DNA from: a virus
Virus record (IMG/VR): IMGVR_UViG_3300044522_001050
Location: 1-35,621 of that record
Reading direction: 5' to 3' (one strand)
Length of the DNA: 35,621 nt
Each line of letters begins with the position of its first letter. Within the stretch, counting starts at the first letter, position 1. The position numbers and the translations under genes were made by a program. The notes beneath the pieces are model-generated. The model searched no databases. It was not told the DNA's origin and saw nothing but the letters and a program-made list of their open reading frames with translations. Shown here piece after piece: positions 1,601 through 33,681 of the stretch.

Positions 1601-2803
1601 AGGATTAGGTCTATTGAGGTTTACACGCGGATTGTCCGGAGTTATATTTTTTTGTTGACTTTTCTGTGAAATATTTTCAGAGGCGGCTGAGAGGGAGGTA
1701 TTCAAGCTGTCAATCACGACTGGTGCATGAGAGGGAAAAAAGATCTTTCCGCTCTTGATTTCGACCACCTCACTCGTCGCTCCCTCACGAGTGTTGCGCA
1801 CACCTTCGTCGGTGCCCAAAATCGTAGCCTTGGCCGATTGACTGTTGCTCAGTTCGATTACATAGCCGAAACGCAGAGCGTTATATTGGCCATCTGGCAG
1901 AGCAACAGGCTCTTTCATCCGAAGCTGGTTCGTGGATGCGGCGGCCTCTTCTCCGGGGCTAGACACAATAGCCTCTTTCGGCTGGGATCGATCCATGGTA
2001 GTCACCTCAGCCGGGACACCATTGTCTGGATTCTCTGGAATGTTCTCTGCCACAATATTTTTCGTAATAGGCAAAATTCCCTTGACATCTGCGGCGGGAT
2101 TCGACACGATAGAGTATCCAAGGATGACTGGAGAGCCTTTGATAATTCGGAAAAGCAGATCGCCGTTATTTGCGCGACCATTGCCCCCGTTACAGGTAAG
2201 AAGACGGTCGTATGCTCCGAAATTCTGGTCGTCGGACGAAATAACCTTGGCGTCAAAGAGATTCTTGGAGCCCACACCGATATCATAGGCCTGAAACGCG
2301 ATTTCCCATGAGAGGCTCAGGGCCTCCGTGCCCACGGAATCATCATTCATCGTGAGGTACTTGGAGAGCATGGGGTTGACAGCTTTCCACAGCGCGCCGA
2401 CCACGGACATATTGAACGGCTCTTTCAGCATGGCGGCTTCGGATGCGGTGATTGGCTCGCTAGTCCCAAAGCGCGTAACAGCAGAATCAAGGATAAAGCC
2501 CACTACGCTGTCGCGGTCATGTTCGGTCGAGATGAACTTGTGCTTCGCCGTATGGTTAATCGCGAGAGCGGTCTCCGTCGTTACAGAATCCCCGTTCTTG
2601 TTGACCATGCCAGCGACAGCGCCATCAGCCGCGAAGTAAAGCAGGTCAGGATTGTCCTCGGGGCGAATTCCGGAAGGCAACAGCCCTCTGAGAGCATCAA
2701 TCGATGCTTTTGCGACAAAACGATCTTGGTCCGATGGCGAAACTATGCGGGCCGAGGTTTCAAATCTAGACTTGTAGAGATAGTCGGCGGGTAGTGTGGA
2801 CAT
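893..2803 (-). CDS. Prohead protease fused to scaffolding protein
   Basis: A 636-residue two-part protein. Residues 1 to about 240 look like a prohead maturation protease: a VNKNGD segment near 67-72, a His in STEHDRDSVVGFI (His95) and a Ser in LSLSWEI (Ser165) match the usual His and Ser placement of phage capsid proteases. Residues about 250-400 are a low-complexity linker. Residues 402-636 form a charged coiled coil rich in Ala, Glu and Lys (about 410-495), then an acidic segment (EEDFDLDDEDRQ) and a lysine-rich tail, as in scaffolding proteins. The protein would assemble inside the procapsid and then digest the scaffold. An internal in-frame ATG at residue 402 follows a promoter-like motif (see the nested feature). 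Catalytic assignments are by pattern, not alignment. Confidence 0.78.
   Translation of the reverse strand: MSTLPADYLYKSRFETSARIVSPSDQDRFVAKASIDALRGLLPSGIRPEDNPDLLYFAADGAVAGMVNKNGDSVTTETALAINHTAKHKFISTEHDRDSVVGFILDSAVTRFGTSEPITASEAAMLKEPFNMSVVGALWKAVNPMLSKYLTMNDDSVGTEALSLSWEIAFQAYDIGVGSKNLFDAKVISSDDQNFGAYDRLLTCNGGNGRANNGDLLFRIIKGSPVILGYSIVSNPAADVKGILPITKNIVAENIPENPDNGVPAEVTTMDRSQPKEAIVSSPGEEAAASTNQLRMKEPVALPDGQYNALRFGYVIELSNSQSAKATILGTDEGVRNTREGATSEVVEIKSGKIFFPSHAPVVIDSLNTSLSAASENISQKSQQKNITPDNPRVNLNRPNPMDIKTISDIEQNWAEICKMEATASVALIQEAINKGSEEYVAKIEAEKNLLKNAEEAKASAEKRSAELEVAIAEVRKQLEELTQRAQASELAAKYQERMASFEEDFDLDDEDRQLIASDIRELSDEAFAAYAKKCKKLMAGKFKRGGDPTFKKTLDKDKTDDSCDKGGKASDHKDADDAKASVDLKAAFASAKDNGSTDTKIVNGVNVDEDLLATMKNAFAESFKLDGKPLSAAKK
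1621..1646 (-). promoter_or_regulatory. Late-promoter-like bipartite motif inside the protease-scaffold gene
   Basis: Read on the minus strand it begins TATAACT and ends CGCGTGTAA, 26 bases in all, matching the copies at 14398 and 33656 in both boxes and in spacing. It lies within coding sequence, 20 bases ahead of the in-frame ATG at 1600. Confidence 0.55.
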
Positions 2804-2807
2804 ACGT

Positions 2808-2827
2808 GCGTGTAAGGGGTTACACGC
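2808..2827. repeat. Perfect inverted repeat in the protease-scaffold leader
   Basis: GCGTGTAA, four bases (GGGG on the plus strand), then TTACACGC. The arms are 8 bp and perfect, ending 4 bases from the start codon of the 2803 gene. It could be an RNA hairpin near the start or a DNA operator, and it overlaps the GTGTAA box of the late motif. Confidence 0.6.
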
Positions 2828-2845
2828 ATTTTTTGCCCAATTTAA
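2820..2845 (-). promoter_or_regulatory. Late-promoter-like motif before protease-scaffold (degenerate left box)
   Basis: On the minus strand the site begins TTAAATT and ends GCGTGTAA, with the same 26-base length as the better copies. The right box is perfect, while the left box keeps AA at positions 4-5 and T at 7. It ends 16 bases before the ATG at 2803. Its right box is also one arm of an inverted repeat (2808-2827). Confidence 0.45.
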
Positions 2846-2865
2846 CTAAAAATGCAAAAACTAGC

Positions 2866-3606
2866 CTATTCGTTAAAAAACGTATCTTGCGCTATCAAGG
2901 TCAATAGCGCCTCTTGATCTGGGGTAAACTCAACCATAGACTCACCCTCAGCCCAACCGTAAAAAGAGGTCTTTCTGACATGCTCTTTTGAGCCGATCTC
3001 CACCAGTGGATTCGCAAATCCGTAAAAAGAAGATTTCGATCTGGTTTTCGCTGTCCAGACAGGAATTCCCAAGTTGTTTTCAGAAGACTCCGAGATGGAT
3101 TTTGAAAAACCGACAGAGGAAACGACTCCATGAGCCGCGCCCTTGAAAAACTGAGTGGATTTTGAGGAGGAAGAGCGCTCGGCAACCCCAGCAACAATCC
3201 CATAGAAACGGGGGGCTACGGGACGCTTGCCGCGAGACGACTTGATAACGTCGGCGCGAATCTCGGATTTGGAGCCTGAAATGTCTTTGATCTCGGTCTC
3301 AAAAACCGTGACAAGATTCGGAAACTTTATCGTCTCATACTTCGGTTCCGGGGCAGGGGCAAAGAGCGCTCTGCGGACCTTTCCGCGACGGTCGCTTACG
3401 CCACCACCGCCACCCCCACCGCCAACAGGCTTTGGAGGAGTAGGTGGAACCGGCGCTGGGGTCTCTCCGAAATAGAGCTGTTGGCCATAATACGACTGAC
3501 CAAACGTGGCAGAGCCAAACATACCGCCCGCATTGGGCCTAATGGTAATTTGTTCGGCCTGCGAAGCGCCGTAGAAGGATTGACCGTAAAAATATGCGCC
3601 AAACAC
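2866..3606 (-). CDS. FYG-repeat protein, probable virion component
   Basis: A 246-residue protein that I do not recognise. The N-terminus carries aromatic Tyr/Phe-Gly-Gln repeats (YFYGQSFYG, then FGQSYYGQ). A proline run and a run of eight glycines follow near residues 50-70. The rest contains about four loosely repeated units that begin FYG or FFKG followed by an Ala (RFYGIVAG, QFFKGAAHG, SFYGFANP, SFYGWAEG), each then rich in Ser and Lys. The start used is GTG at 3604-3606, because no ATG lies near the repeat start; the late-like motif 3616-3641 ends 9 bases before it. Placement between the glycosyltransferase pair and head genes suggests a structural or fibre-associated role, but this is inference. 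Confidence 0.6.
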   Translation of the reverse strand: MFGAYFYGQSFYGASQAEQITIRPNAGGMFGSATFGQSYYGQQLYFGETPAPVPPTPPKPVGGGGGGGGVSDRRGKVRRALFAPAPEPKYETIKFPNLVTVFETEIKDISGSKSEIRADVIKSSRGKRPVAPRFYGIVAGVAERSSSSKSTQFFKGAAHGVVSSVGFSKSISESSENNLGIPVWTAKTRSKSSFYGFANPLVEIGSKEHVRKTSFYGWAEGESMVEFTPDQEALLTLIAQDTFFNE

Positions 3607-3615
3607 AGTAAGAGA

Positions 3616-3641
3616 TTACACCTAAAAGAGGCTAAGTTCTA
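3616..3641 (-). promoter_or_regulatory. Late-promoter-like motif before the FYG-repeat gene
   Basis: On the minus strand it begins TAGAACT and ends TAGGTGTAA, with the standard 26-base span. One base of the left box differs from TATAACT. It overlaps the stop codon of the acetyltransferase gene (3632-3634) and ends 9 bases before the GTG start at 3606, so any transcript starting after it would be almost leaderless. Confidence 0.45.
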
Positions 3642-4090
3642 ACTGTGTCCCGGACTCTGGCGGGCTCCCCGCGAACCATAGAGAAGGCTTCAACGTCCTT
3701 TGTTACGATGGCTCCAGCCCCAATCCGCGCTCCTTTTCCAATTCTGACCCCGGGCAAAAGAACCGCGCCAGCGCCAATGGAGGCATCATCTTCAATGATC
3801 GGAGGCTCTGCCCTGTAGCCCGGGTTGCTCACGACCGGGTTACGATCATCGCACGCAACAACGCCGGGGCCAATAAAGACGCTGTGCCCAATCCGGCTGT
3901 TGGGCGGCAGAAAGGTGTTAAAGCCAATTCTCGTTCCATCTCCAATGGTCGTTCCATGGCCGATTTCGCAGCAAGAACCGATGTTGCAGTTCTTTCCAAT
4001 TTCAACGTTGGCAAGGACTACGGAGAAGTTCCAGACGCGAGTTCCCTCGCCGATAACAGCAGTGGGGTGAATAGAATTGATTACGCTCAT
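3632..4090 (-). CDS. Hexapeptide-repeat (left-handed beta-helix) acyltransferase
   Basis: A 152-residue protein made almost entirely of [LIV]-G-x4 hexapeptide repeats, the signature of the left-handed beta-helix acyltransferase fold. Examples are VEIGKNCNIGSCCEIG and IGKGARIGAGAIV, followed by the typical end GEPARV. The opening IHPTAVIGEGTRVWNF and the loop VACDDRNPV resemble WbpD/WlbB-type N-acetyltransferases that acetylate an amino group on a nucleotide sugar using acetyl-CoA. Its ATG overlaps the stop of the glycosyltransferase gene (ATGA), so the two are co-translated and probably act on the same glycan. In a phage this could modify virion proteins or host surface sugars. The enzyme class is clear; the substrate is not. 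Confidence 0.88.
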   Translation of the reverse strand: MSVINSIHPTAVIGEGTRVWNFSVVLANVEIGKNCNIGSCCEIGHGTTIGDGTRIGFNTFLPPNSRIGHSVFIGPGVVACDDRNPVVSNPGYRAEPPIIEDDASIGAGAVLLPGVRIGKGARIGAGAIVTKDVEAFSMVRGEPARVRDTVRT

Positions 4091-5064
4091 AGGTTTTTGT
4101 AAATCTCGATCATTGCCTTGGCGGTTTCCGACACGTCTGGGACAATCTCTTTTTTGCGAGGCTCCACTTCGCCGTTCAAAATATTGACGAGTTCAGCCGC
4201 AAAGACCCGCTGATCCCCCTCTGTTATCCAGTAGTCCGAATAGGGGTTACCGGCATACGAAATGGTTTTCGCGCCTGACGCATTCGCCTCAAGACACAGG
4301 CGGTTAAAGTCTCCGTAGCGCACCATCCCAAGGAAGAAGTCCGTTGAGCAGAATGCATTGCGCAGCGTATCGTGATCAAAGGCGATTGGGGAGATATGGC
4401 TCCAGTAAGAAGTCCCGTTGCGATTGACCATTGGGAAGAACCAGCGGTGCATATCATTCGGGAGATAGGGGTGGTGTAGGCGCGCCTCGCCTTTTACGTT
4501 CGGGGCGATCCAAGGTCCCCATGCCATGAAAAGGTCGAGAGACCATTTGATGGTGTGCTGATTTTCACAGGTCAAAACCGAAGGGGAGCCAGCGAATTTA
4601 CCACGAGTGGGCAACGGCTTCCAGAAGTTCTTGTCAACACCGAGGGGGATGCAGTGGACGGCGCGCCCCTTGTCGCACAGGCTTTGCCAAATAGCCTGAT
4701 GGCGCGGCCAAAAAGTAACAATGGCATCGGCTGTTCTGAGCCAATTCTGCGTCAGCATCCACCCATCGGAATGGCCATAAGACTTTTTAGCCCCCTCTTC
4801 AACAGATCCCTGAAAAATGTGCTCTGGAGTTCCATGACATACCCAAACGATCTTGAGCGGCTTTTTCACCCGCTTACGCATGGAGTCTGGGAAATGGGTG
4901 TGGCTTACGTGAATGTCAGCGTCAAGCCCAGCGTCAAAAGTGCTGGCGTCCTGAGGATTGCAAAGGATGGAGTCATACCCCAAAGCTTTTTCGCTGGCCA
5001 CGCAAGATTCGGCAACGCGGGCCATGCCTGAATTATTGCGGATTGTCCAATGGGCTATTTTCAT
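4087..5064 (-). CDS. GT-B family glycosyltransferase (GT4-like)
   Basis: A 325-residue protein with the layout of a GT-B glycosyltransferase. It has an N-terminal Rossmann-like start (MKIAHWTIRNNSGMARV), a mid-protein HCIPLGVD (residues 137-144, matching the N/P-x-GVD segment of GT4 enzymes), and a C-terminal donor-binding segment FNRLCLEANASGAKTISYAG (253-272), equivalent to the E-x7-E/LEAxASG region. No signal peptide or membrane segment is present, so it should act in the cytosol on a nucleotide-sugar donor. It overlaps the acetyltransferase by 4 bases. The pair lies between the fibre and head genes, so glycosylation of a virion protein such as the Ser/Thr-rich fibre is one possibility. 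Donor and acceptor are unknown. Confidence 0.82.
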   Translation of the reverse strand: MKIAHWTIRNNSGMARVAESCVASEKALGYDSILCNPQDASTFDAGLDADIHVSHTHFPDSMRKRVKKPLKIVWVCHGTPEHIFQGSVEEGAKKSYGHSDGWMLTQNWLRTADAIVTFWPRHQAIWQSLCDKGRAVHCIPLGVDKNFWKPLPTRGKFAGSPSVLTCENQHTIKWSLDLFMAWGPWIAPNVKGEARLHHPYLPNDMHRWFFPMVNRNGTSYWSHISPIAFDHDTLRNAFCSTDFFLGMVRYGDFNRLCLEANASGAKTISYAGNPYSDYWITEGDQRVFAAELVNILNGEVEPRKKEIVPDVSETAKAMIEIYKNL

Positions 5065-5084
5065 AGGTGGTGTATAAACCGCCT

Positions 5085-5112
5085 ATGATGATAGTTTTCC
5101 CAGAAAGGTCAA
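5085..5112 (-). promoter_or_regulatory. Sigma-70-like promoter for the glycosyltransferase pair
   Basis: Minus strand TTGACC, 16 bases, CATCAT, followed by the ATG 20 bases later at 5064. The CTTGAC box and 16-base spacing are shared with sites at 11760, 21860, 34644 and 35143. An imperfect inverted repeat (CATAGGTGG with CCGCCTATG, 5062-5087) spans from the -10 to the start codon and could be an operator. The -10 box is weak. Confidence 0.35.
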
Positions 5113-5134
5113 GACAAAAGCGAAGCCTCAGAGA

Positions 5135-6058
5135 TCACCAGCAGGAAATGATCACAAGGCCGTCGCCAGCCTTGCCACCTTGCCCTCCAGTTACACCTTG
5201 ACCGCCGCCGCCGCCGCCGCAGCCAAAGCCGCCTTGGCCACCCTTGCCACCAATATTACTCCCCGTCGGATTAGAGCCGCCGCCAGTTCCACCAGTCCCG
5301 CACAGGCCTTGGAACTGCCAAAAGCCCGAGTTGCCATGGCCGCCACTCGCGAGACCGCCGGGAATCGTAGTAATAAGACCAGCGCCGGTAATTGCGCCGC
5401 CAGCAGTTAGATTGTTGTTATTACTGGTGGTTCCACCTCCTCCAGATCCACCGCAAAGCATTGAGTTGACCATGGCCGTTACAGCCGCAGCCGCACCTGC
5501 GGTAATACCACCCGCACCACCCGCAATACTAACGTCCGCCTTCCAAGCACCCGGGTAAGAAAGCTGCATAGCAGTTTGCACTGCAATAGTGCCTGCGGCA
5601 CCCGCAGCGCCAGTTGTTCCAGCAGCCGCTGGAGCAGCAGGATTATTGGCATTGGCCGAAGTATAAAGGTTTGCGGCTGTAATACTTCCACGAATGGCCG
5701 AAACGTAGGAGTTCATGCCAATGACACCGGGTCCGTTAGCCGCGCCGCCGTTTGCTCCCACGCCTACAGAAATATGTAGAAACTCGGGAAGGAAGAACGC
5801 AGGAATAATCAGTTTTGTATAGCCGCTAGATCCACCGCCGCCGCCACCGGCACTAATTCCAGAGTTTCCAGCAGGACGGGAATTTCCACCAGCCCCAGAC
5901 GCCCCAGAGCCAATGCATAGAATACTCACCATCATTGCGCCCTTTGGCTTTTGCCAAACCTGCCAGCTGCCAACCGTGACAACAGAACTGATGCCAGCAG
6001 CGTAAAAGATTTGGTTCAAGCCTCCGCGTCCAATCGGAAAGTGGAATGTGTCAATCAT
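5135..6058 (-). CDS. Glycine-rich protein, candidate fibre-tip adhesin
   Basis: A 307-residue protein. An N-terminal part of about 60 residues (MIDTFHFPIGRGGLNQ...) is followed by long glycine-rich tracts (GGGGGGSSGYTK, GGSGGGGTTSNNNN, GGTGGGSNPTG, CGGGGGGQG) separated by hydrophobic and Ala-rich segments. Such alternation is known in glycine-rich phage tail proteins and in gp38-type adhesins of phage S16, where glycine runs pack as polyglycine-II helices with the variable loops at the end. The start at 6058 overlaps the upstream stop (TGATG) and has GGAGG 9 bases before it; a longer reading frame to 6091 exists but would overlap the neighbour more. It follows the giant fibre and a 153-residue protein, which fits a tip or receptor-binding role. 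Role inferred. Confidence 0.7.
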   Translation of the reverse strand: MIDTFHFPIGRGGLNQIFYAAGISSVVTVGSWQVWQKPKGAMMVSILCIGSGASGAGGNSRPAGNSGISAGGGGGGSSGYTKLIIPAFFLPEFLHISVGVGANGGAANGPGVIGMNSYVSAIRGSITAANLYTSANANNPAAPAAAGTTGAAGAAGTIAVQTAMQLSYPGAWKADVSIAGGAGGITAGAAAAVTAMVNSMLCGGSGGGGTTSNNNNLTAGGAITGAGLITTIPGGLASGGHGNSGFWQFQGLCGTGGTGGGSNPTGSNIGGKGGQGGFGCGGGGGGQGVTGGQGGKAGDGLVIISCW

Positions 6059-6519
6059 CAGTAGTTGCCTCCGAAAATGATAGCGCCCCAATTCAGATTG
6101 CTGGTTTGAGCGGTGTGTTGAGAAATGTGGAGATATTGACCTGAACCGATGGCGCGGCCAACAGGAACTTCGTAGTAGTTGGCGGCGTTTGTAGCGCTCG
6201 ATGCGGCAATGATGGGAACACCGACTTCGGAAAAGAGAAAAGTATTTAGGTCAGTTGTCAACCCGGGAACAGGCACAGTGCTGATATAGGTACGAAGCAC
6301 AGTAGCGACGCTATTGGTTGCTCCTGACGCCATACATGTCCAACGAATAGTGTCAATGTAGCTGCCATTTGGCCCACCGGAAAACGCGGCAATCATATTA
6401 TCAATGCCCACGCCAGCGCTGTAGCCATCGCTGCGAGGAACGGCCCATGTATTAGGAATGGAATTGAACGTGACAACTGGAGTTGCAGTGAACAGTGGAT
6501 TGTTATTTGGTGCTGGCAT
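6058..6519 (-). CDS. Small probable fibre-associated protein
   Basis: A 153-residue protein starting MPAPNNNPLFTATPVV, rich in Ala, Ser, Thr, Val and Asn, with no signal peptide or membrane segment. Predicted structure by eye is beta-rich. It sits 22 bases after the giant fibre and overlaps the glycine-rich protein by one base, so the three form a tight cluster: shaft, this protein, tip candidate. I do not recognise a named family. It might be a fibre connector, a tip domain or a carbohydrate-binding module. No Shine-Dalgarno sequence precedes its ATG. Confidence 0.6.
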   Translation of the reverse strand: MPAPNNNPLFTATPVVTFNSIPNTWAVPRSDGYSAGVGIDNMIAAFSGGPNGSYIDTIRWTCMASGATNSVATVLRTYISTVPVPGLTTDLNTFLFSEVGVPIIAASSATNAANYYEVPVGRAIGSGQYLHISQHTAQTSNLNWGAIIFGGNY

Positions 6520-6541
6520 AAGAATTTAGGTAAAGGACAAA

Positions 6542-9500
6542 TCAAAAAAGGGCCATACGGGCTTCATTCACACCCACAAGCACATCATTGATGGCGTTAC
6601 TGGCGATAGTGGAGCTTATGGTTGAAATCAAAACGCTTTGTGACAAATTGTCGGAAGCTTCTATCGTCGCCACGCTTGTCGCCATAGAGCGGGCGACTGA
6701 GTCGGGAGCGCCGCCATTGGCAGTGGATTGCGCGGCTGAAATCAGGATGGATTGAGATAGGTTGTCGGAGCTTTCCGTAGTCGCCACACTAGTCGCCATG
6801 GAACGGGCAACAGAATCAGGAGCCCCACCGTTCGCGGTCGATTGCGCAGCTGAAATCAACAGGCTTTGAGACAGATTGTCGGAGCTTTCGGTCGTGGCCA
6901 CGCTCGTCGCCATCGATCTCGCCGTTGAATCTGGAGAACCAGCGCTGGCAGTAGACTGGGCGGTACTAATCAGGATCGATTGACTTGTATTGTGCGAGGC
7001 CTCAATAGAGAGGTTGGTTGACGCTACCGTGGAAACGCTCAGAGCCTTGGAATCTGCGGTCGAGGCATTGGTTGTTGCCGTAGAGATCAGGATCGACTGA
7101 GAAAGGTTTTGGCTTCCCATCACGCTCAGATTGGCCGAGATGACAACGGAATCGCTAACCGCTTTAGAGTCGGCTACGGACGCATTGGTCGTAGCGGTTG
7201 AGATAAGAATGCTCTGAGACGTATACTTCGAGTCGGTAGTAGTCTGGAGAGTGGAGATGACCACGGAATCCGAAACTGCTTTGGAATCGGCCACGCTGGC
7301 ATTGGTGGTGGCCGTGGAAATTAACGTGGATTGAGACGTGTCCTTGCTGTCCGCCGAAGACTGCGCGGTCGAAGCACGTGTGCTCGCGCTATCAGCCGCG
7401 CTAATTGCTAGGCTGTCAACCTTGAGGGAATCGTCTCCTGCGGAGATTTGAGCGCTAACCGCGCTTTGGACTGTCGATCCAGCGGTTACGCGCGAGACGG
7501 CGGCAGAAGCGCCAGAGGTGTATTCGCCAGAGCTTACGGCTTTTGAATCCGCAGTCGAGGTCAGAAGTGAAACCGACAGAGCTTTGGAATCAGCCGCAGA
7601 GGCATTTGTGGTGGCCGTGCTAATCAGAACGCTCTGGGAGACATTTTTGGAGTCGGTGCTCGTTTGCAGGGTCGAGATGACGACAGAGTCAGAAACGGCC
7701 TTGCTGTCAGCAGTGCTGGCGTTTGCCGTAGCAGTGGAAATCAGCGTAGATTGGCTGGTGTTCTTGCTATCCACAACCGATAGATTGGTGGAGTCTACAG
7801 TTGAGCTGGAAACTGTCTTGCTGTCAGCCACGCTTGCGGCCAACCCCGCGCTGGCAGCTTTGGAATCTGCGGTGCTGGCGCTTGAAGAATCAGTAACCGC
7901 CAACGAACCAGCAGAAACGGCTTTGGAATCAGCAATCGACGCCTGTGCGCTGGCGCTGTCGGCGGCGCTAATCGCCAAACTGTCAACCTTCAGAGAGTTT
8001 GTGCCGGTAGAAATCTGCGCGCTAACTGCGCTCTGCACAGTTGAGCCAGCCGTGACCCGAGAAACAGCCGCAGAAGCTCCCGAAGTATACTCACCCGCAC
8101 TAAGGGCTTTGCTGTCGGCTGTAGAAGCATTGGCCGTGGCAGTCGAGATAAGGACGCTTTGGGAGAGATTATCAGACGACTCTGCCGTGGCGACGCTGGT
8201 CGCCATTGATTGAGCTGTGCTATCCGAAGAGCCAGCGCTAGCAGTAGAGAGCGCAGCGGAAATCAAAAGAGACTGAGAGAGATTGTCTGAAGACTCAGTT
8301 GTCGCAACGCTTGTAGCCATCGAGCGGGCTATGCTATCTGGCGCGCCACCGCTCGCGGTAGATTGGGCCGTGCTGATCAGAATGGATTGGCTTGTGTTAT
8401 CCGAAATTTCCGTGGAAAGATTCGCGGAAACAACCGCCGAAATACTGAGGGTTTTAGAATCTGCGACTGATGCTCTCGTGCTGGCGCTATCGGCGGCGCT
8501 AAGAACCAAGCTGTCGGTCTTCAGAGCGTCTGTACCAGTAGAGATTTGTGCGCTAATCGCGCTTTGAACCGTCGAGCCCGCTGTCACGCGAGAAACGGCT
8601 GCCGAGGCACCGGAAGTGTATTCTCCGGCGCTCAATGCCTTGGAGTCAGCGGTAGAGGTTAGGACCGAATCAGAAACCGCCTTGGAATCGGCAATCGATG
8701 CATTGGTTGTCGCCGTGCTAATCAGAATACTTTGCGACACGTTCTTGGAGTCGGTCGAAGTCTGAAGAGTCGAGATCACTACCGAGTCGGAAACGGCTTT
8801 GCTGTCAGCGATGCTAGCGTTTGCTGTCGCGGTGGAAATGAGAGTGGATTGACTGCCGTTCTGGCTAGTCGTGATAGAAAGATTCGTGGAATCAACAGTG
8901 GAACTAGACACCGTTTTGCTATCCGCCACGCTTGCGGCGGAACCCGCGCTAGCCGCCTTGGAATCAGCCGTGCTTGCGCTGGTCGAATCCGTAACGGCCA
9001 AAGAACCGGCTGACACAGCTTTGGAATCAGCCGTGGAGGTAAGCGTGGAAACGCTCAAAGCTTTTGAATCGGCGGTCGAAGCGCGAGTGCTCGCGCTATC
9101 AGCCACGCTAATTGTGAGGCTATCAAGCTTGAGTGAATTTGCTCCAGACGAAATCTGCGCGCTGACCGCGCTCTGAACGGTAGAGCCAGCAGTAACACGG
9201 GAAACGGCTGCCGAAGCTCCATCCGTATACTCTCCAGAGCTTAACGCTTTAGAATCAGCGGTAGAAATCAGCGTGCTCTGACTTGTGTTCTTGGAGTCGG
9301 TTGTTGTTTGAAGAGTGGACGTTACAACCGAGTCAGATACCGCTTTGGAATCTGCAATAGAAGCGTTCAGGGCTGCGCTCGTTGCCATGGAACGGGCAAC
9401 GCTATCGGGCGCGCCTGCATCGGCAGTAGACTGCGCAGTAGAAATGAGCAGAGACTGCGAGAGATTGTCCGAAGATTCCGTAGTCGCAACACTGGTGGCC

Positions 9501-11728
9501 ATGCTCCGAGCCACCGAATCTGGTTGACCACCACTAGCCACGGACAAGGCCGAAGAAATCAGCAGAGATTGCGACAGATTATCGGAAGACTCTGTGGTGG
9601 CAACACTCGTCGCCATGCTTCGGGCAACAGAGTCAGGAGATCCTGCGCTAGCGGTGGACAAAGCCGTCGAAATCAACAGGCTTTGCGAGAGATTGTCTGA
9701 AGATTCTACCGTGGCAACGCTGTTGGCCGCAGAAAGGGCATCGGAAATGAGCGCCGACTGAGAAACGGCTCGTGAAGAATCTACCGAAAGATTAGTCGAG
9801 ATTACCACCGAATCTGAAACAGCTTTGGAGTCTGCGGTAGAGGCCGCAGCTGTAGCGGTGGAGATCAAAACGGACTGAGAGGCAATTTTTGAATCACTGC
9901 TAGTCTGAAGAGTGGACGTGACAACAGAATCAGAAACCGCTTTGGAATCAGCGATAGACGCATTGGTCGTCGCGGTCGAAATAAGCGTAGATTGAGAAAC
10001 GTCTTTGCTGTCAGTGGTGCTTTGAACAGTGGAAATAACCACTGAATCCGAGACGGCCTTGGAGTCAGCCGTGGATGCGCGTAGGCTAGCGCTGTCTGCC
10101 GCGCTCAGAACGAGGCTTTCGACTTTGAGGGAATTTGTTCCGGTCGAAATCTGCGCGCTGACCGCGCTTTGAACCGTGGAACCCGCTGTGACACGGGAGA
10201 CCGCAGCCGAAGCCCCAGCTGTGTATTCTCCAGAGCTAAGCCCCTTAGAGTCAGCAGTGGAAATCAGAAGGCTTTGACTCGTGTCTTTGGAGTCGCTCGT
10301 CGTCTGAAGCGTAGACGTAACGACAGAGTCGGATACCGCCTTAGAGTCAGCAATCGAGGCATTGGTTGCCGCGCTTGTCGCCATTGAACGCGCCACAGAG
10401 TCAGGAGAACCAGCAGTTGCTGTTGATTGCGCCGTGCTGATGAGAATGGATTGCGAGGTATTGTCAGAGGCCTCAGTTGATAGGTTCGCAGAGACAACAG
10501 TAGACACACTCAATGCCTTAGAATCAGCCGCCGAAGCATTGGTGGTGGCCGCGCTGATCAATGTGCTCTGCGAAGTGTTCTGGCTGTTCGCCAAACTGAG
10601 GTTGGTCGAGATAACAACGCTGTCCGAAACGGCTTTAGAGTCCGCCGTGGAAGCATTGGCGGTCGCAGTCGAAATCAATACGGACTGAGAGTTGTCTTTG
10701 GAGTCGCTGGTCGTTTGAAGCGTAGAGATTACAACTGAGTCGCTAACGGCCTTGCTGTCCGCAGCACTCGCGGCTGTCCCAGCACTGATGGCAGACGATC
10801 TTGCCACAGAATCAGCAGCGCCGTTATCAGCGGTTGATTGCGCGATGCTGATCAAAACAGACTGGCTTGTATTGCGCGAACTCTCAACGGAAAGATTGGT
10901 CGAGATTACGACGCTATCCGATACGGCCTTGGAGTCGGCGGTTGAAGCTGCGGTTCCAGCACTTGTGGCCAAACTGCGGGCCGTAGAATCGGCCCCTCCG
11001 GCAGTGGCAGTAGAGAGAGCGGCGGAGATAAGGACGCTTTGAGACAGATTGTCAGAAGCTTCCGTTGTCGCCACGCTCGTCGCCATGGAACGGGCGACGG
11101 AGTCTGGAGTGCCTGCACTGATTGACGACTGAGCCGCCGAGATCAGGACCGACTGGCTGAGATTGTTTGAATCTGCAAGCGACAGATTCGTAGAAATAAT
11201 GACCGAATCGCTGACAGCTTTAGAATCAGCAACCGAAGCATTGGTGGCCGCGCTGTTGGCCATAGATCTGGCGACAGAATCCGTTCCACCAGTCGTGGCG
11301 GTAGACAAAGCGGCAGAAATCAAAAAGCTTTGAGACAAAACGTCCGAGGCTTCCGTAACCGCAACGCTTACAGCCTTAGAATCCGCAACGCTTGCCGCAG
11401 CAGTGTTGCTGGAAATCCCGGTTTCAAGATCATTGACAACCTTGATCGTAATCGTATTGGCGATCTGGTCTCCGACCAAAATGGTCCGAGCTGTAGTGCC
11501 CTCCTGAGCGCGAACAATCGTGAAAGTATCTCCGGTAATTCCAGTAACCCGAATGATTTCAGCGTTAGTAGACAATGGACCCGTTCCAGCAGGCCAAACC
11601 GTACAGTTGAATGGCGGCGCGGGAAACACGGCAGCACCTCCGGCGGACAAAACAAGCGAGGTTCCACTGGACGGGGAAACCGGAGCCGTTAAGACGACAG
11701 AGTAAGCAAAATTGCTATGATTGTCCAT
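6542..11728 (-). CDS. Giant Ser/Ala/Thr repeat fibre (1728 residues)
   Basis: Residues 1 to about 105 form a folded N-terminal domain with AEIIRVTGITGDTFTIVRAQEGTTAR and DQIANTITIK, a module common at the start of phage tail-fibre proteins. From there almost to the end the protein is a repeat of 7- and 14-residue units such as ADSKAVSDSVVIST and SQSVLISTATANAS, with regularly spaced Val/Ile/Leu among Ser, Ala, Thr and Asp. This suggests a long trimeric coiled coil or similar fibrous shaft. A longer block with GEYT...GASAAVSRVTAGSTVQSA occurs five times, and a block ending DSVARSMATSVATTES many times. It ends VLVGVNEARMALF with no obvious globular tip, so a partner may supply the tip. It has a sigma-70-like promoter (11738-11765), and its leader is nearly absent. 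Confidence 0.85.
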   Translation of the reverse strand: MDNHSNFAYSVVLTAPVSPSSGTSLVLSAGGAAVFPAPPFNCTVWPAGTGPLSTNAEIIRVTGITGDTFTIVRAQEGTTARTILVGDQIANTITIKVVNDLETGISSNTAAASVADSKAVSVAVTEASDVLSQSFLISAALSTATTGGTDSVARSMANSAATNASVADSKAVSDSVIISTNLSLADSNNLSQSVLISAAQSSISAGTPDSVARSMATSVATTEASDNLSQSVLISAALSTATAGGADSTARSLATSAGTAASTADSKAVSDSVVISTNLSVESSRNTSQSVLISIAQSTADNGAADSVARSSAISAGTAASAADSKAVSDSVVISTLQTTSDSKDNSQSVLISTATANASTADSKAVSDSVVISTNLSLANSQNTSQSTLISAATTNASAADSKALSVSTVVSANLSTEASDNTSQSILISTAQSTATAGSPDSVARSMATSAATNASIADSKAVSDSVVTSTLQTTSDSKDTSQSLLISTADSKGLSSGEYTAGASAAVSRVTAGSTVQSAVSAQISTGTNSLKVESLVLSAADSASLRASTADSKAVSDSVVISTVQSTTDSKDVSQSTLISTATTNASIADSKAVSDSVVTSTLQTSSDSKIASQSVLISTATAAASTADSKAVSDSVVISTNLSVDSSRAVSQSALISDALSAANSVATVESSDNLSQSLLISTALSTASAGSPDSVARSMATSVATTESSDNLSQSLLISSALSVASGGQPDSVARSMATSVATTESSDNLSQSLLISTAQSTADAGAPDSVARSMATSAALNASIADSKAVSDSVVTSTLQTTTDSKNTSQSTLISTADSKALSSGEYTDGASAAVSRVTAGSTVQSAVSAQISSGANSLKLDSLTISVADSASTRASTADSKALSVSTLTSTADSKAVSAGSLAVTDSTSASTADSKAASAGSAASVADSKTVSSSTVDSTNLSITTSQNGSQSTLISTATANASIADSKAVSDSVVISTLQTSTDSKNVSQSILISTATTNASIADSKAVSDSVLTSTADSKALSAGEYTSGASAAVSRVTAGSTVQSAISAQISTGTDALKTDSLVLSAADSASTRASVADSKTLSISAVVSANLSTEISDNTSQSILISTAQSTASGGAPDSIARSMATSVATTESSDNLSQSLLISAALSTASAGSSDSTAQSMATSVATAESSDNLSQSVLISTATANASTADSKALSAGEYTSGASAAVSRVTAGSTVQSAVSAQISTGTNSLKVDSLAISAADSASAQASIADSKAVSAGSLAVTDSSSASTADSKAASAGLAASVADSKTVSSSTVDSTNLSVVDSKNTSQSTLISTATANASTADSKAVSDSVVISTLQTSTDSKNVSQSVLISTATTNASAADSKALSVSLLTSTADSKAVSSGEYTSGASAAVSRVTAGSTVQSAVSAQISAGDDSLKVDSLAISAADSASTRASTAQSSADSKDTSQSTLISTATTNASVADSKAVSDSVVISTLQTTTDSKYTSQSILISTATTNASVADSKAVSDSVVISANLSVMGSQNLSQSILISTATTNASTADSKALSVSTVASTNLSIEASHNTSQSILISTAQSTASAGSPDSTARSMATSVATTESSDNLSQSLLISAAQSTANGGAPDSVARSMATSVATTESSDNLSQSILISAAQSTANGGAPDSVARSMATSVATIEASDNLSQSVLISTISSTIASNAINDVLVGVNEARMALF
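7380..10290 (-). repeat. Five long repeat blocks within the giant fibre
   Basis: A block of about 60 residues, ADSKALSxGEYTxGASAAVS and then RVTAGSTVQSAVSAQIS up to DSLxxSAADSASxRAS, occurs five times. The GEYT segment lies near 7520, 8090, 8615, 9225 and 10225. The protein copies are nearly identical, but the DNA copies differ at many synonymous positions. Confidence 0.8.
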
Positions 11729-11737
11729 GTGTTTGGG

Positions 11738-11765
11738 ATGGTGAGACTTTTGTAAATCAAGTCAA
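11738..11765 (-). promoter_or_regulatory. Sigma-70-like promoter for the giant fibre
   Basis: Minus strand TTGACT (within TTTTAGGCTTGACT), 16 bases, CACCAT, with the ATG only 9 bases after the -10 box, so the mRNA would be almost leaderless. The 13-base string TTTTAGGCTTGAC recurs exactly at the 21860 site. The -10 match is poor; the shared upstream string and spacing are the main support. Confidence 0.35.
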
Positions 11766-12116: not shown

Positions 12117-12121
12117 GGGAA

Positions 12122-14353
12122 TTATTCCGTTTCGTTGAACTCAAAACCCTGAGCAGTCTTTACGACTTTGACTTTTTTGGGTTTACGAGTGGGCTGATCG
12201 AGCTGAATAGTGAGCTTATCATTGATGGGGGTCGCGGGGACCACGGGAGCAACAGAAGCCTTGGCGGTTTCCATGACGACGGTTTGAGCCGCAGCAGTGG
12301 CAACTTTGCGAATCATTTCTTCGTCCATGACCTTCGGCTTTTCCGCCTGAGGAGTGTAACGAGGTGCGCCTTCCATAGAGGCTTTTGAATGGTAAAGCAA
12401 AGCGGCGTCCCAAGAATCGACTTCAAACTGCTCGGAAATCTCTTCCAGTTCTTGAGCGGTCTCGCTCGGAATCAGTGGCGGACTCTTGATGGCCGAGGCA
12501 ATGGCTTTGACCCACTGCTCTACGGGCTTAGTGCCCATGATTGCGCGGGCAAGAGACTCGATTATGCTTCTCTGAGTATCGTTCGGCTCGCTGACCTTAA
12601 ACTTCTTCTGGATTTCGGCCACAAGACGGTCACTGGCCTTGAGATTCTGGGCGTAAGCCTTGATAGAAAAGCCTTCTGCGGCTTTTGCGGTCGTGCCGAT
12701 AGGAGAAGATTTGCGGATGCCAATCTGCTTTTCGCCACCAGATCCAGAGGGGCGACCATTTGAGCCTGAAGCTCCACCGTCTTTTTGACCGCCAATCAGA
12801 GGCATAAACAGCCCCTTGTCACGCTGGGCTTTATAGGCCTTCTGACCCTCTTCCATTTCGTCGTAGTCTGGAAGCACATCGGTTTCAATAGCCTTGACCG
12901 CTTGGTCTGCCGTAAGGACTCCGAGCTGCGCCAGAGACGTGTAAATACGCATGAGCACAGCTTCGTCTTGCAGATTGATCTTTCGGAAGCTGATGTTGGG
13001 AACGGTGCGGAAGCCCATGGCGTCGCACACCTGTTGAACCTCGGGCATCAGGAAATTGACGAGAAGATTGTTCTGCCCCTCTTCCAAACGCTGAATGAAA
13101 ATCTTGGCCTTGATCTGAGCGTTGGCAAATTTGTCATCGCCCGTGAGAATCGATTGGAGACCCTCACGAATATCCGCGTCAACGACCTTGTATTTTTCTG
13201 GCCCGAGGATATCCTTGATGTCGGGGATCGCCCATTGAGCCTTGGTGGTATAGTCAGCCACGAGCACACGGCTGATCGTCTGATTGGTGAACAGGTTTTG
13301 CAGCCGCGCAATGTTCTTGACGTTGATACCGTTACCGCCGTTGTATTGCGTTCCGGACTCGCCCGTCGTCACGATGAGGAGAGCGTGCTCAATCTTGCGC
13401 GCCAGCTCTTTGTCCATCTTCTTCAGCTCCAGCTTGTACTCGATATCCGCGAGGACAGGGTAGAGCATGGGGATAGAGAGGGGCTCGTAGTCCTGCTTTT
13501 TGTAGAAGAAGAAGCGAAGACGATCAGCCTCAAGCGGAATGTAGACGCCAAGAGGAAAGGAGTTGCCAGCTTGAATCATCTGCTTGACCTCTTTGGGAAG
13601 CGACTGATAGACCTGTTCATCTTGAACGGTCATAGGATTCTTGAGGCGCACCAGCTCGTAGGTAGAGAGCAGCCGGACGTAGGAGTGCGGATAGGTCAGG
13701 CCAGTTGGCACGAAGATATTCGCGGGGTTCAGCAACTCGTAGCGAATTGGGATCTTGTTGTCTTTCGCGCCGAAGGATTGCTGAAGATTCTTGTAGTAGG
13801 AAGGCCCGAATTTGCCACTGAATTTGTAGATGAACGGATTGCCCGAGCGGTAATACTCGCGGAAAAGCTGCTCGTTCAATTTCGTAATGTTGATAGCGTT
13901 AAACCACTCCTCGAAAAAGGTTTTGACCGTGCTGTTATTGCACTTGATGACCATGGGCTGGTTAGAGAACTCCACGGAGACCTCTACGGCGTTTCTTGCA
14001 ATCGCGATGCCCGCCCACGCTTTCGCGCACAGCTCTATGGAGTCTTTTGCGCCGACATAATCTCGATTGCCGCTAAAACCAGCATACGGCATCGGGATAG
14101 CCCTGATATTCTGAAACGCGGTCGGATCGGTCAGCCCATTATTAGCCTGACTGTTGCGATACGAGGTGGTCAAAGAAGCGGAGCTGGCGCGAGCCTCTTG
14201 AGTCTCACCGTAAGCTACATCCGGAAAGGGTAATGGCGTGATATCTGGACCCTGCGGAGTCGTATTGACCGTGATAGATTGCGGCGTGGACGCCTCAGCC
14301 TGTTTACGAGGCTGGTCCCAATACTCTGAGGATTTCGTATATTTTCGGGCCAT
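12122..14353 (-). CDS. Portal protein
   Basis: A 743-residue protein. It has the length and features of phage portal proteins: a long helical region after residue 100 (IELCAKAWAGIAIARNAVE), a conserved-looking central part (IPIRYELLNPANIFVPTG, LYPVLADIEYKLELKKMDKELARKIE), and then a helical segment with the QRLEEGQNNLL and SLAQLGVLTADQAVKAIETD stretches typical of the crown or stem end. The C-terminal 200 residues or so are low complexity, with Lys/Pro tracts. It follows the large terminase directly, the canonical packaging order. As a dodecamer it would form the DNA channel at the capsid vertex and dock the terminase. A late-like motif (14398-14423) lies upstream. The assignment rests on these features and synteny. 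Confidence 0.85.
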   Translation of the reverse strand: MARKYTKSSEYWDQPRKQAEASTPQSITVNTTPQGPDITPLPFPDVAYGETQEARASSASLTTSYRNSQANNGLTDPTAFQNIRAIPMPYAGFSGNRDYVGAKDSIELCAKAWAGIAIARNAVEVSVEFSNQPMVIKCNNSTVKTFFEEWFNAINITKLNEQLFREYYRSGNPFIYKFSGKFGPSYYKNLQQSFGAKDNKIPIRYELLNPANIFVPTGLTYPHSYVRLLSTYELVRLKNPMTVQDEQVYQSLPKEVKQMIQAGNSFPLGVYIPLEADRLRFFFYKKQDYEPLSIPMLYPVLADIEYKLELKKMDKELARKIEHALLIVTTGESGTQYNGGNGINVKNIARLQNLFTNQTISRVLVADYTTKAQWAIPDIKDILGPEKYKVVDADIREGLQSILTGDDKFANAQIKAKIFIQRLEEGQNNLLVNFLMPEVQQVCDAMGFRTVPNISFRKINLQDEAVLMRIYTSLAQLGVLTADQAVKAIETDVLPDYDEMEEGQKAYKAQRDKGLFMPLIGGQKDGGASGSNGRPSGSGGEKQIGIRKSSPIGTTAKAAEGFSIKAYAQNLKASDRLVAEIQKKFKVSEPNDTQRSIIESLARAIMGTKPVEQWVKAIASAIKSPPLIPSETAQELEEISEQFEVDSWDAALLYHSKASMEGAPRYTPQAEKPKVMDEEMIRKVATAAAQTVVMETAKASVAPVVPATPINDKLTIQLDQPTRKPKKVKVVKTAQGFEFNETE

Positions 14354-14397
14354 GTGAAAAAGAAAGACGCAAAGTCAGAATTGACCCGCACCAGTCA

Positions 14398-14423
14398 TTA
14401 CACGGATTTCAGAGGCAGTTATA
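14398..14423 (-). promoter_or_regulatory. Late-promoter-like bipartite motif before the portal gene
   Basis: Minus strand TATAACT, 13 bases, GTGTAA. It occupies the gap between the terminase stop (14449) and the portal start, ending 44 bases before the ATG. The 15 bases CTGAAATCCGTGTAA are identical in the copy at 33656, although the neighbouring genes are unrelated. Confidence 0.6.
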
Positions 14424-14448
14424 CGAAAATTGCAGGGAAAGTGAGAAT

Positions 14449-16347
14449 TTACCCCCCACCAATCAGCACATACGGAAAATCTTCTGGCGGCTCCTCGGAG
14501 GGGACCGCTTGCGAGTCCAGATACATCTTGATAGCCCAAACCCCAAGAAGAAGGGCCGAGTACGAGTCCTTTCTGACCTTGTTAGGGCCACCAGTCCTCT
14601 TCATATTCTGCGGCAAATCCCAATTCTGGGTGCCCAAAGATGTCTGTTTTACCTGAATCATCGAGCATTCCTTGCGGGTCAAGTCCAACAGATTATCCTG
14701 ATGCTCAATGAATTGAGAGGGGCTTAGCTCACACAGTTCCTCATGATCTTTGAGCAGCGGGACCACGGTATTGCTACCGATATCGATGTTCTTGCCAGAT
14801 TCCTCGGAGTTTGCAGCAATCTTGCCCGCGAACATGACGCCCTTGTGGTCAAAGCAGCCCTGAAGATACTCATTTGCAGCCTTCTGGAAAGGCGAGAGGA
14901 ACGGCTGCTTTTGGACGATCCGACCAATAGTCCGGTTGTAGCTCTTTTTGATCTGTTCTGGCATCTCGGAAAAATTGTCCTTGGCGAACTCGCACTCGAT
15001 GTCGATCAGCTCGATCTTGGCGCGCTTGAACCGCTCCGACTGGTTACACATGTTGATGAACTCCACTTCGCTACCTTGGGAGGCGTCAATGGCCAAGTAG
15101 ACGACGTTGAAGTGAGTCAGAAGGTAGTGCAGATACATCTCATGATCCTTCAGATTGCCGCCTGCGACCGCGTAGGAATGAACCACCATGCCAATCTTCT
15201 TGCCATCCAATCTCTGAACAATCTTCAGCACGCACATGGCGAAATGGTCAGAAGATTCAGATCCCGACAAGGATGGGTCAATAGCTACGACGTATTCGGC
15301 CAGCTTTTCGCCCACCAATTCGAGCGTGGGAGTCGCGCCATCCTCAATAGAGCAGCCAACCATCTTGGCCGCACGAAAATAGCCGTCTGAGTCGCCCTCA
15401 AAAATCGCGCCATACTCCCGGTTGAACATGGATTCGGAAAAGCCGCGCTTATCCTCCTCGATCTGCTTCATGTTCAGTAGGCCCTCCGGCGCGGCCTCAT
15501 AGCCAATGCGGGAAATGAAGTAGGAGAGACCAGCCTCCTTCAATGAGGCGGCGCGCGTCTCTTTCGTGAGCAAATCGCACCAGTCACAGTAGGTTTTGTA
15601 CATGTGCTCGAAGGTGTAAGACGCCGAGGACAGGAAGATCACCTTCTTTCGGTCATCAATAATCTCGCGCTCTGCTTCAGTCATGAGACCTCGGGCAATC
15701 AGCTCGTCCTCGCGCTCTCTCTGCTGGAGCTGCTCTTTGATTTTGCTGTTGGACGCCAGAAACGGCCTAAGCACCTCATTGATAATGGTCTCCGGCATAT
15801 ACGCGTATTCGTCCACGATCATTGTGTCGGCGCGGATACCACGGATCTTTGTGCCGTCCCCGAGGGGGAGGCACAGGATGGACGATCCATTGGGAAGGAC
15901 CCATTTCCACTCATCCGTCTTGCGCTGTAGGGGCTGTGGGTAGCACGCGCGAAGCATTCCAGCCTCTTTGTCATTGACGAATTTCTCACACTGCTCCAAA
16001 ATGCGGCGGCTAGCACGAAACGCAAAGGACATGATGACAATGCGGTGGTTGGGATTGTAGATCGCCCAAAGCATCGCGAAGATTGCCGCGCAAATCGACT
16101 TGCCGATACCGCGCCCCCAGACGGCCATGTTGAAATCGTTCCTCATCCAGCCCTTGATGAGGAGTTCCTGCATGGGGTAGATTTTGATCCCAGCCACCAT
16201 CTCCAGAGTAAACGCAGGGTTAGCGATGAGGAATTCGGCCAGCAAAGCCTTGGCCTCTTCCTCGGAGATGTCTCCTTCTATAGCGTTGATCTTGGCGTTC
16301 ACGTCCTCAATCGGACGGATGTTATTGTTTGTGTCGATCCAAGCCAT
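14449..16347 (-). CDS. Terminase large subunit
   Basis: A 632-residue packaging motor. The ATPase domain has the Walker A variant WGRGIGKS (residues 77-84), Walker B TMIVDE (175-180) and a coupling motif FLSSAS (239-244). The nuclease domain shows an RNase-H-like first Asp in VVAIDPS (Asp357) and a second acidic strand in VYLAIDAS (Asp421). The enzyme binds concatemeric DNA, cuts it and pumps it through the portal. Its ATG lies 15 bases after the nuclease gene, preceded by CATCACC with no Shine-Dalgarno sequence. Genes before it (nuclease, duplicated-HTH protein) and after it (portal) complete a packaging module. The call is firm. Confidence 0.96.
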   Translation of the reverse strand: MAWIDTNNNIRPIEDVNAKINAIEGDISEEEAKALLAEFLIANPAFTLEMVAGIKIYPMQELLIKGWMRNDFNMAVWGRGIGKSICAAIFAMLWAIYNPNHRIVIMSFAFRASRRILEQCEKFVNDKEAGMLRACYPQPLQRKTDEWKWVLPNGSSILCLPLGDGTKIRGIRADTMIVDEYAYMPETIINEVLRPFLASNSKIKEQLQQREREDELIARGLMTEAEREIIDDRKKVIFLSSASYTFEHMYKTYCDWCDLLTKETRAASLKEAGLSYFISRIGYEAAPEGLLNMKQIEEDKRGFSESMFNREYGAIFEGDSDGYFRAAKMVGCSIEDGATPTLELVGEKLAEYVVAIDPSLSGSESSDHFAMCVLKIVQRLDGKKIGMVVHSYAVAGGNLKDHEMYLHYLLTHFNVVYLAIDASQGSEVEFINMCNQSERFKRAKIELIDIECEFAKDNFSEMPEQIKKSYNRTIGRIVQKQPFLSPFQKAANEYLQGCFDHKGVMFAGKIAANSEESGKNIDIGSNTVVPLLKDHEELCELSPSQFIEHQDNLLDLTRKECSMIQVKQTSLGTQNWDLPQNMKRTGGPNKVRKDSYSALLLGVWAIKMYLDSQAVPSEEPPEDFPYVLIGGG

Positions 16348-16362
16348 GGTGATGAGGGCGTT

Positions 16363-17277: not shown

Positions 17278-17283
17278 CGGGGG

Positions 17284-32461: not shown

Positions 32462-32469
32462 GGTGATGA

Positions 32470-33246
32470 TTATCCTAGATTTGAAAACAAGCCAAATGTT
32501 AAAGGCATGGAATCAGACGCGCATGGGATTGGGGCGAGATTGATGGCAATCTTACGAATGACCTGTTGAAATTCTTCTTTTGACCAATCATTTTTCGCCA
32601 GATTCATCGATCCTATGCATAGGCAAATATTCTCTGGTGTATATCCGATACTTGAGTCAATGCGATCTAGCGACACTTTGTATATGCTGTTTGCGGCAAT
32701 TCTAAAGGATTCCAAATCGTTTGGACATAGCATTTTACAGCCAGTATAAGCGCAAAGTCCATTTTGTTTTTTGTAGAGCTTATCAACGTCCTGAATTGTA
32801 ATTTCAAAGGGAATTTTTCTAGCAACCGCGCCCGCTCTCCAGTTTTTAAACATACTCGAATAAATATTCTCGGTAGTTTTTTCCATAAATCGGGCTCTAA
32901 GATGATACATTCTATGGCGGACTTTTTCTGCCAAAGCTGTTTCCGAGTGTTCTTTTAAATATTTTTTTGCATATTTCTCCACGGTTCTCCAATCAATAGA
33001 AATATTCATGAACTCTGTTTTTTTCATTCCATTGGCATAATTCTCCACGATCCGGAGAGACTCATCGTCTGATTTTTTTACATGATCAGCCGTCCCTCTC
33101 CTTTTTACATTCTGGCGCTGTAATGCAGCCATTATGGTTGGAGGGTTGCTCGAAACAGATGCGGCCAATTTAACAGTGCTCTCGCCAGCGAGATAGCGAA
33201 CCGCTATTTCAGCCTCTTGTTCGTCGGTGAATCGTCTTTTAGGCAT
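32470..33246 (-). CDS. HNH endonuclease with N-terminal HTH, probable mobile gene
   Basis: A 258-residue protein. Residues about 5-45 look like a resolvase-type helix-turn-helix (FTDEQEAEIAVRYLAGESTV ... SNPPTIMAALQRQ). The C-terminal part has an HNH-like nuclease core: NGLCAYTGCKM (162-172), VSLDRIDSSIGYTPENICL (191-209) and MNLAKNDWS, the form seen in free-standing phage HNH endonucleases. The start at 33246 is preferred, since it lies 2 bases after the upstream stop. The gene is visibly more A+T-rich than its neighbours and uses different codons, a sign of horizontal transfer. It is inserted between a small structural gene and the fibre gene without breaking either. It would cut a related phage at this locus to spread itself. 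Confidence 0.82.
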   Translation of the reverse strand: MPKRRFTDEQEAEIAVRYLAGESTVKLAASVSSNPPTIMAALQRQNVKRRGTADHVKKSDDESLRIVENYANGMKKTEFMNISIDWRTVEKYAKKYLKEHSETALAEKVRHRMYHLRARFMEKTTENIYSSMFKNWRAGAVARKIPFEITIQDVDKLYKKQNGLCAYTGCKMLCPNDLESFRIAANSIYKVSLDRIDSSIGYTPENICLCIGSMNLAKNDWSKEEFQQVIRKIAINLAPIPCASDSMPLTFGLFSNLG

Positions 33247-33248
33247 TT

Positions 33249-33593
33249 TTAGGTAGCCGACCAAGCTAGAAAGTGACAGAGGGCGGACCCGCTTACGGAA
33301 ATATCGCCCAAATAATTCTGTTCAACAAGAATACCGCCATCCGAGCCAAATGGTCCAAAGGCCGCAGAGACGGTCGCGGGCTTGAGAAGCACGTTGAAAT
33401 TGCCCGTTCCAGCGGGGCCACTGTTGTAGGCCACAAAAAGCGGGCCGCCCGACCCGATGACCTGAAGGTAGGCCGCCTTGCGACCGGCATTGGCCGGGAA
33501 ACACACCCCAGTAGTCATCACCGTGGCTGATCCCGATGGCGCGGAGCTAGAAATCGTAGAATAGGGCTGATTGACCGAGGTTACAAGTGGCAT
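33249..33593 (-). CDS. Small structural protein (114 residues)
   Basis: Starts MPLVTSVNQPYSTISSSAPS and continues as a Ser/Gly/Ala-rich beta-type chain (AAYLQVIGSGGPLFVAYN, GGILVEQNYLGDISVSGSAL). The pattern resembles small virion surface or decoration proteins, but I recognise no named family. It is preceded by a 62-base leader after a strong late-like motif (33656-33681) and a hairpin (33623-33647), which suggests high and regulated late expression. It is the first gene after PhoH in this unit. Confidence 0.6.
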   Translation of the reverse strand: MPLVTSVNQPYSTISSSAPSGSATVMTTGVCFPANAGRKAAYLQVIGSGGPLFVAYNSGPAGTGNFNVLLKPATVSAAFGPFGSDGGILVEQNYLGDISVSGSALCHFLAWSAT

Positions 33594-33622
33594 GGGAAGA
33601 AGAGGGATAAGTAAGACGTTCC

Positions 33623-33647
33623 GCCCAGCCCCGAGATGGGGCTAGGC
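33623..33647. other. Leader hairpin before the 33593 gene
   Basis: AGCCCC, loop GAGAT, GGGGCT, extended by GCC/GGC past one mismatch. It lies between the late-like motif and the ATG, so it would be in the 5' leader. It has no T-run. It could stabilise the mRNA or stop read-through from PhoH. Confidence 0.55.
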
Positions 33648-33655
33648 AGTGGGAG

Positions 33656-33681
33656 TTACACGGATTTCAGACTGATTTATA
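33656..33681 (-). promoter_or_regulatory. Late-promoter-like bipartite motif before the 33593 gene
   Basis: Minus strand TATAAAT, 13 bases, GTGTAA, beginning right after the PhoH stop codon. The left box equals the first seven bases of the T4 late promoter consensus TATAAATA. This is the best copy together with 14398-14423. Confidence 0.6.

Follow-up and report, generated by a model that had tools for sequence, protein, structure and literature searches.

A GTGTAA box as a candidate late promoter element in a clade of uncultured phages, with a putative ECF-like sigma factor as its likely reader

Introduction

The late promoter of phage T4 consists of a sole element, TATAAATA, located at -13 to -6. 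The late sigma factor of this phage is gp55 (PMC3014915). The late promoters of AR9 and phiKZ carry the motifs AACA-N6-TA/G and TATG and are read by phage multisubunit polymerases, and the leaders in AR9 are 26-491 nt long (PMC5312081). Among promoters of the ECF type, those of Neisseria sigma-E combine a -10 box CGTCTAAH with a spacer of 12-13 nt and, six bases on, a conserved A (PMC2893595), and those of E. coli sigma-E have the -35 box GGAACTT (PMC8103513). No description of GTGTAA as a phage promoter was found in the open-access papers searched.

Here we analyzed the 35.6-kb virus record IMGVR_UViG_3300044522_001050 (the whole stretch of 35,621 nt is referred to as the window), which contains a two-box motif, TATAA(C/A)T-N13-GTGTAA. 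The motif shares with ECF sigma-E promoters the two-box layout and a conserved start purine downstream. Its right box in the form CGTGTAA is one base apart from the ECF -10 box CGTCTAA (C to G) and is preceded by a spacer of 12 nt, within the Neisseria range, and TAGAACTT in the left box region has a central A-tract in common with GGAACTT. It differs from the ECF promoters in that the -35 box is not conserved in the clade, that the driven genes appear to be phage late genes, and that the predicted start lies about 9 nt past the box. Likenesses to the T4 late promoter are a putative phage-encoded sigma factor, a short -10-like element, the lack of a clade-wide -35 box and virion genes as targets; the differences are another box sequence, TATAA located in the -35 region, no match of the sigma protein to gp55 and leaders that are often predicted to be absent. 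The AR9 and phiKZ late promoters are similar in having a short motif near the start site, late genes as targets and promoters inside ORFs, but differ in both motif and polymerase. In our reading the GTGTAA element would belong to those late promoters of phages for which the phage supplies its own sigma factor.

Results

GTGTAA boxes in the window

The recognizable genes of the window, which encode TerL, a portal-like protein, an ERCC4-type nuclease, PhoH, large fibre-like proteins and a sigma-like protein, are all located on the minus strand. An earlier note, made from the sequence alone, had listed five sites of the two-box motif on this strand, and all five were recovered at their coordinates (Table 1). 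For the strict pattern TATAA[AC]T-N13-GTGTAA there are exactly three matches, every one of them on the minus strand; the reversed pattern has none. GTGTAA occurs 16 times in the window where 8.0 copies are expected, and 16 or more were seen in 0 of 100 shuffles. At five of the six window promoter sites the box has the form CGTGTAA. The sixth site of the set, at 34590, had been put aside in the earlier note as a weak outsider; since phoH carries the box in most relatives, we count this site as a member. The left-box register ahead of phoH reads CGAAACA. The box at 1621 is not intergenic but sits inside the ORF at 893-2803. The gene at 2866-3606, behind the 3616 box, starts with GTG.

Sigma-70 promoters (TTGACA-N17-TATAAT) showed no excess over shuffles in positions 1-18000 of the window (11 versus 10.5), and none was found on the gene strand at the box sites within that region. 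The 2820 box is also one arm of a palindrome at 2806-2829 (GCGTGTAACCCCTTACACGC), the other arm of which is at 2810-2815; the palindrome is located at the predicted transcript start and may represent a pair of facing boxes or else an RNA hairpin.

Table 1. Predicted promoter elements and associated genes in the window.
Feature	Position	Strand	Remarks
GTGTAA core box (CCGTGTAA)	14398..14403	-	upstream of portal gene; predicted +1 14389, T/G at 8/9 nt past box
GTGTAA core box	33656..33661	-	upstream of gene 33249-33593; predicted +1 33647
GTGTAA core box	1621..1626	-	within protease-scaffold ORF, 20 nt 5' of internal ATG 1600; predicted +1 1612
GTGTAA core box	2820..2825	-	upstream of protease-scaffold gene, gap 16; predicted +1 2811
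GTGTAA core box	3616..3621	-	upstream of gene 2866-3606, gap 9
GTGTAA core box	34590..34595	-	upstream of phoH, gap 79, no left box of the TATAA type; predicted +1 34581
Left (-35-like) box TATAACT	14417..14423	-	portal promoter
Left box TATAAAT	33675..33681	-	33656 promoter
Left box TATAACT	1640..1646	-	1621 promoter
Degenerate left box TTAAATT	2839..2845	-	2820 promoter
Left box TAGAACT	3635..3641	-	with next base GAACTT, close to ECF -35 GGAACTT (PMC8103513)
Protease-scaffold-like ORF	893..2803	-	downstream of portal, before capsid-like genes; internal promoter and in-frame start
Portal-like protein gene	12122..14353	-	behind 14398 box; weak tblastn match of orthologue to phage G portal; synteny with TerL
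Terminase large subunit (TerL)	14449..16347	-	no box in 103 orthologues
Putative ECF-like sigma factor gene, 237 aa	18447..19160	-	Sigma70_r2, Cys-rich insert, C-terminal helical domain
PhoH-like gene	33683..34510	-	behind 34590 box

Conservation of the box in relatives

No close relatives were found among GenBank phages, and no close cultured member of the clade was found. The first relatives were recovered through PhoH, and about 160 further loci came from alignments of TerL and of the sigma protein. Alignments were needed, as a single TerL or sigma protein used as a query identified no relatives in viral contigs; a TerL search of genome contigs yielded no relative. TerL relatives in IMG/VR number more than 500. 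Most loci that contain these genes preserve the order phoH - sigma - g17284 - ercc4 - TerL - portal.

In a set of 106 non-redundant loci (1.41 Mb), no hexamer was more enriched than GTGTAA in the sense-strand sequence upstream of genes, with 260 copies versus 5.1 expected from its coding frequency. Another 115 copies upstream of genes are antisense, many of them from divergent neighbours. GTGTA was present in 81 of 83 distinct TerL-portal junctions (4.7 in shuffles), and the two exceptions, L151 and L152, both have altered portal boxes. No enrichment was found in 62 loci of other phages that were reached only via PhoH (7 versus 7.3). The base preceding the box in the relatives is usually A or T.

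Orthologues were scored as boxed when GTGTAA or GTGTAT was present within 130 nt of the gene. Boxes were found for portal (65/85), phoH (45/58) and protease (7/16), and for none of the 363 orthologues of TerL (103), ercc4 (98), g17284 (83) and sigma (79). The window matches the clade in this respect, with boxes ahead of portal, protease and phoH and none ahead of the other four genes. As the sigma-g17284-ercc4-TerL operon has no box, it would be expressed from another kind of promoter. The comparative data, comprising enrichment, junctions, orthologue placement and the gap and +1 pattern described below, lend strong support to the earlier proposal that late genes are preceded by a phage-specific promoter. 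The reading of GTGTAA as a clade-wide phage promoter element is well supported.

Two arrangements in the relatives are worth recording. Divergent genes (for example in L127, L124, L082 and L200) share short regions in which the boxes face each other, TTACAC-Nk-GTGTAA, at preferred spacings near 7-8, 16 and 39 nt; this layout speaks for the promoter reading. Directly 5' of the portal gene in L152 (14169-14197) and L191 (5173-5188), TCACTTT/CCACTTT is repeated with 9-12 bp spacing; [TC]CACTTT was considered as an element upstream of portal in high-GC relatives and rejected, being inconsistent between phages.

Genes behind the boxes

Of the 196 ORFs of G002, a 170-kb relative, 25 are boxed. The boxed genes that could be identified encode tape measure, minor tail, virion protein, tail fibre, tail fibre assembly and portal, with ribonucleotide reductase (GTGTAT 17 nt upstream) as the exception. 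The block from 60 to 120 kb, with genes for DNA polymerase, DnaB-like helicase, UvsX, RIIA and clamp loader, contains two boxed genes. In this relative the identified boxed genes are thus mostly virion genes, and replication genes are mostly without a box. It is from this virion class that we infer late timing.

The C and Nu3 genes of phage lambda are nested scaffold genes. The ORF at 893-2803, for which no family match was found, resembles such genes as a fused protease-scaffold ORF with an inner start, and its internal ATG at 1600 is probably the nested scaffold start. L074, L151 and L191 likewise have an internal box ahead of a nested scaffold-like start; in L074 and L151 the codons at this box specify a similar peptide, so that constraint on the protein may have a share in its conservation.

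A putative ECF-like sigma factor

The Sigma70_r2 domain (PF04542) was matched in all seven members of the sigma-like protein family that were scanned, with a best value of 1.5e-7, and the window protein scored 24.5 bits at a cut-off of 24. The best PDB sequence matches are mostly ECF sigma factors, all of them weak. An AlphaFold model of the protein has a mean pLDDT of 85 and a pTM of 0.47, with the C-terminal helices modelled with confidence. Sigma factors fill the top of the list of Foldseek neighbours, Mycobacterium SigH first, at E values of 0.04 or worse and none below 0.001; the alignments to SigH and other sigma factors, also at 0.04 or worse, cover both domains. No Pfam match for sigma region 4 was found at the C-terminus, and a Cys-rich insert with four invariant cysteines and a low-confidence linker lie between region 2 and the putative region 4. 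No PHROGs family match, to gp55 or otherwise, was found for the protein. The product of 18447-19160 would behave like an ECF sigma factor and is a putative member of this family.

The sigma gene is conserved together with the clade. This co-occurrence does not single it out, because g17284, its neighbour, for which no Pfam match was found, and other genes co-occur as strictly. We consider the phage ECF-like sigma factor the likely reader of the box, and estimate at roughly three in four the probability that GTGTAA is the -10-like core of a late promoter recognized by this protein. An unlikely alternative is that the promoter core is read by an alternative sigma factor of the host, or else by the host polymerase together with an activator from the phage. 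It would fit a link between motif and sigma factor that consists of co-occurrence and is equally strong for g17284 and others, as well as the situation in L152, in which the sigma gene is present and no GTGTAA was found upstream of genes within the locus examined. It is opposed by the existence of a phage protein with sigma region 2 whose best structural neighbours are sigma-factor folds, and by a box that is one base off the ECF -10 motif and unenriched in other phages.

Transcription start and leaders

Of 635 genes that follow each other tightly on one strand, 9 have the box, versus 128 of 217 genes at gaps of 15-49 nt (p 3e-80), a contrast that is partly due to very short gaps hardly fitting a box. 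Intrinsic terminators end directly upstream of 18 of 321 box sites versus 4 of 456 control starts (p=1e-4). The distances between GTGTAA and the start codon set in abruptly at 8 nt, which is also their mode (48 sites, with 6 sites below 8 nt). A Shine-Dalgarno motif precedes 2% of the starts at gaps of 6-14 nt versus 40% at gaps of at least 20 nt, with the caveat that at the shortest gaps the box itself occupies the Shine-Dalgarno space; the depletion persists at gaps of 10-14 nt (3/116 versus 239/1003, p=1e-9). At the long-gap sites (n=86), the ninth base past the box is a purine in 74% and C in 1% of the cases and is preceded by a pyrimidine. This Y-R step at 8/9 nt past the box fits five of the six window sites. 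Because the onset of start codons, the Shine-Dalgarno pattern and the Y-R step combine, +1 is predicted nine bases past the box, which would place the box at about -14 to -9. Genes with a short gap are predicted to have leaderless or nearly leaderless mRNAs.

That GTGTAA acts in translation, as a ribosome-binding element of a non-Shine-Dalgarno type, would account for the modal site 8-14 nt 5' of the start codon where Shine-Dalgarno motifs are absent. We hold this to be very improbable, since boxes are also located 20-130 nt upstream, often alongside a Shine-Dalgarno motif, are nearly never found in tight operons and abut terminators, and since the initiator-like Y-R step keeps a fixed distance from the box and not from the ATG. 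The 16S molecule carries a GTACAC stretch with which the box might pair, but position 6 of the box avoids C in the relatives, which argues against such pairing.

The left box

TATAA[AC]T has only three minus-strand copies in the window, and every copy precedes a GTGTAA by exactly 20 nt. The shared left box at this offset outscored all 5000 shuffles, also when the 33656 site was dropped. A clade-wide left box was absent in 187 non-redundant sites and in the other genomes tested singly; weak clade-wide signals were traced to A/T-rich positions adjoining the box or to the coding end of TerL. The two-box motif of the earlier note is real, but its conserved core is the right box and not TATAA: judged by sequence comparison, the left box is a genuine element of this phage without conservation among the relatives, and GTGTAA appears to be the only element conserved across the clade. 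A -35 box with an AAC core at fixed spacing was seen in the window and not clade-wide, and the absence of a conserved -35 outside this phage is unusual for an ECF-type promoter.

Because +1 is placed nine bases past GTGTAA, the left box would lie at -34 to -28, in the -35 region. The likeness of the left box to the T4 late promoter that had been suggested does not stand, as by the predicted start GTGTAA would be the -10-like element; a T4-type reading of the TATAA box as a TATAAATA -10 element was ruled out by its wrong distance from the inferred start.

The genes flanking the sites had also been described as unrelated, but sites 14398 and 33656 are not fully independent: they have 16 contiguous identical nucleotides (spacer and right box) and may therefore be copies of one another. 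This identity would be expected if the 26-bp sequence were a short mobile or recombinogenic repeat that had been copied to several places in the genome, an explanation to which we give almost no weight, as the remaining sites have only the boxes in common and GTGTAA is found at orthologous positions in highly diverged relatives.

Discussion

In the preferred reading, a promoter core recognized by the phage ECF-like sigma factor, RNA polymerase with this sigma factor would melt the DNA at GTGTAA and start at a purine about 9 nt downstream. A gene start 8-14 nt past the box would give a leaderless or nearly leaderless transcript for which Shine-Dalgarno is not needed, and a start further off would give a normal leader, often with a Shine-Dalgarno motif. 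In this phage TATAA(C/A)T or TAGAACT at -35 would probably be contacted by sigma domain 4, and the boxes would drive portal, protease, the nested scaffold and phoH. For the broader picture we see even odds: this uncultured lineage may run its whole late programme via its own ECF-type sigma factor and a single GTGTAA box, with no conserved -35 needed, many virion genes leaderless, and a -35 box gained or kept in individual lineages.

For this clade, which counts more than 500 terminase relatives in IMG/VR, there is now a signal for transcription, a candidate for its reader and a prediction of the start site. Sequence alone would suffice to call late genes and true start codons in its genomes, and leaderless translation of phage structural genes becomes directly testable.

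Several other features of the window were observed. The 1728-aa protein encoded at 6542-11728 consists of degenerate 114/117-nt repeats, is rich in Ser, Ala and Asp (ADSKAVSDSVVIST) and is probably a fibre. Four 51-nt tandem units at 24740-24988, within a gene for a 1764-aa fibre-like protein, encode repeats of the NTAIGSLSLYNNTTGSA type. The C-terminal stretch of the product of 32470-33264, which adjoins the gene behind the 33656 promoter, is HNH endonuclease-like (LCAYTGCKM...LDRIDSSIGYTPENICL), and the protein is possibly a homing endonuclease. At 3632-5064 a hexapeptide-repeat acyltransferase gene lies beside a glycosyltransferase-like gene among virion genes, a pair that perhaps serves glycan decoration.
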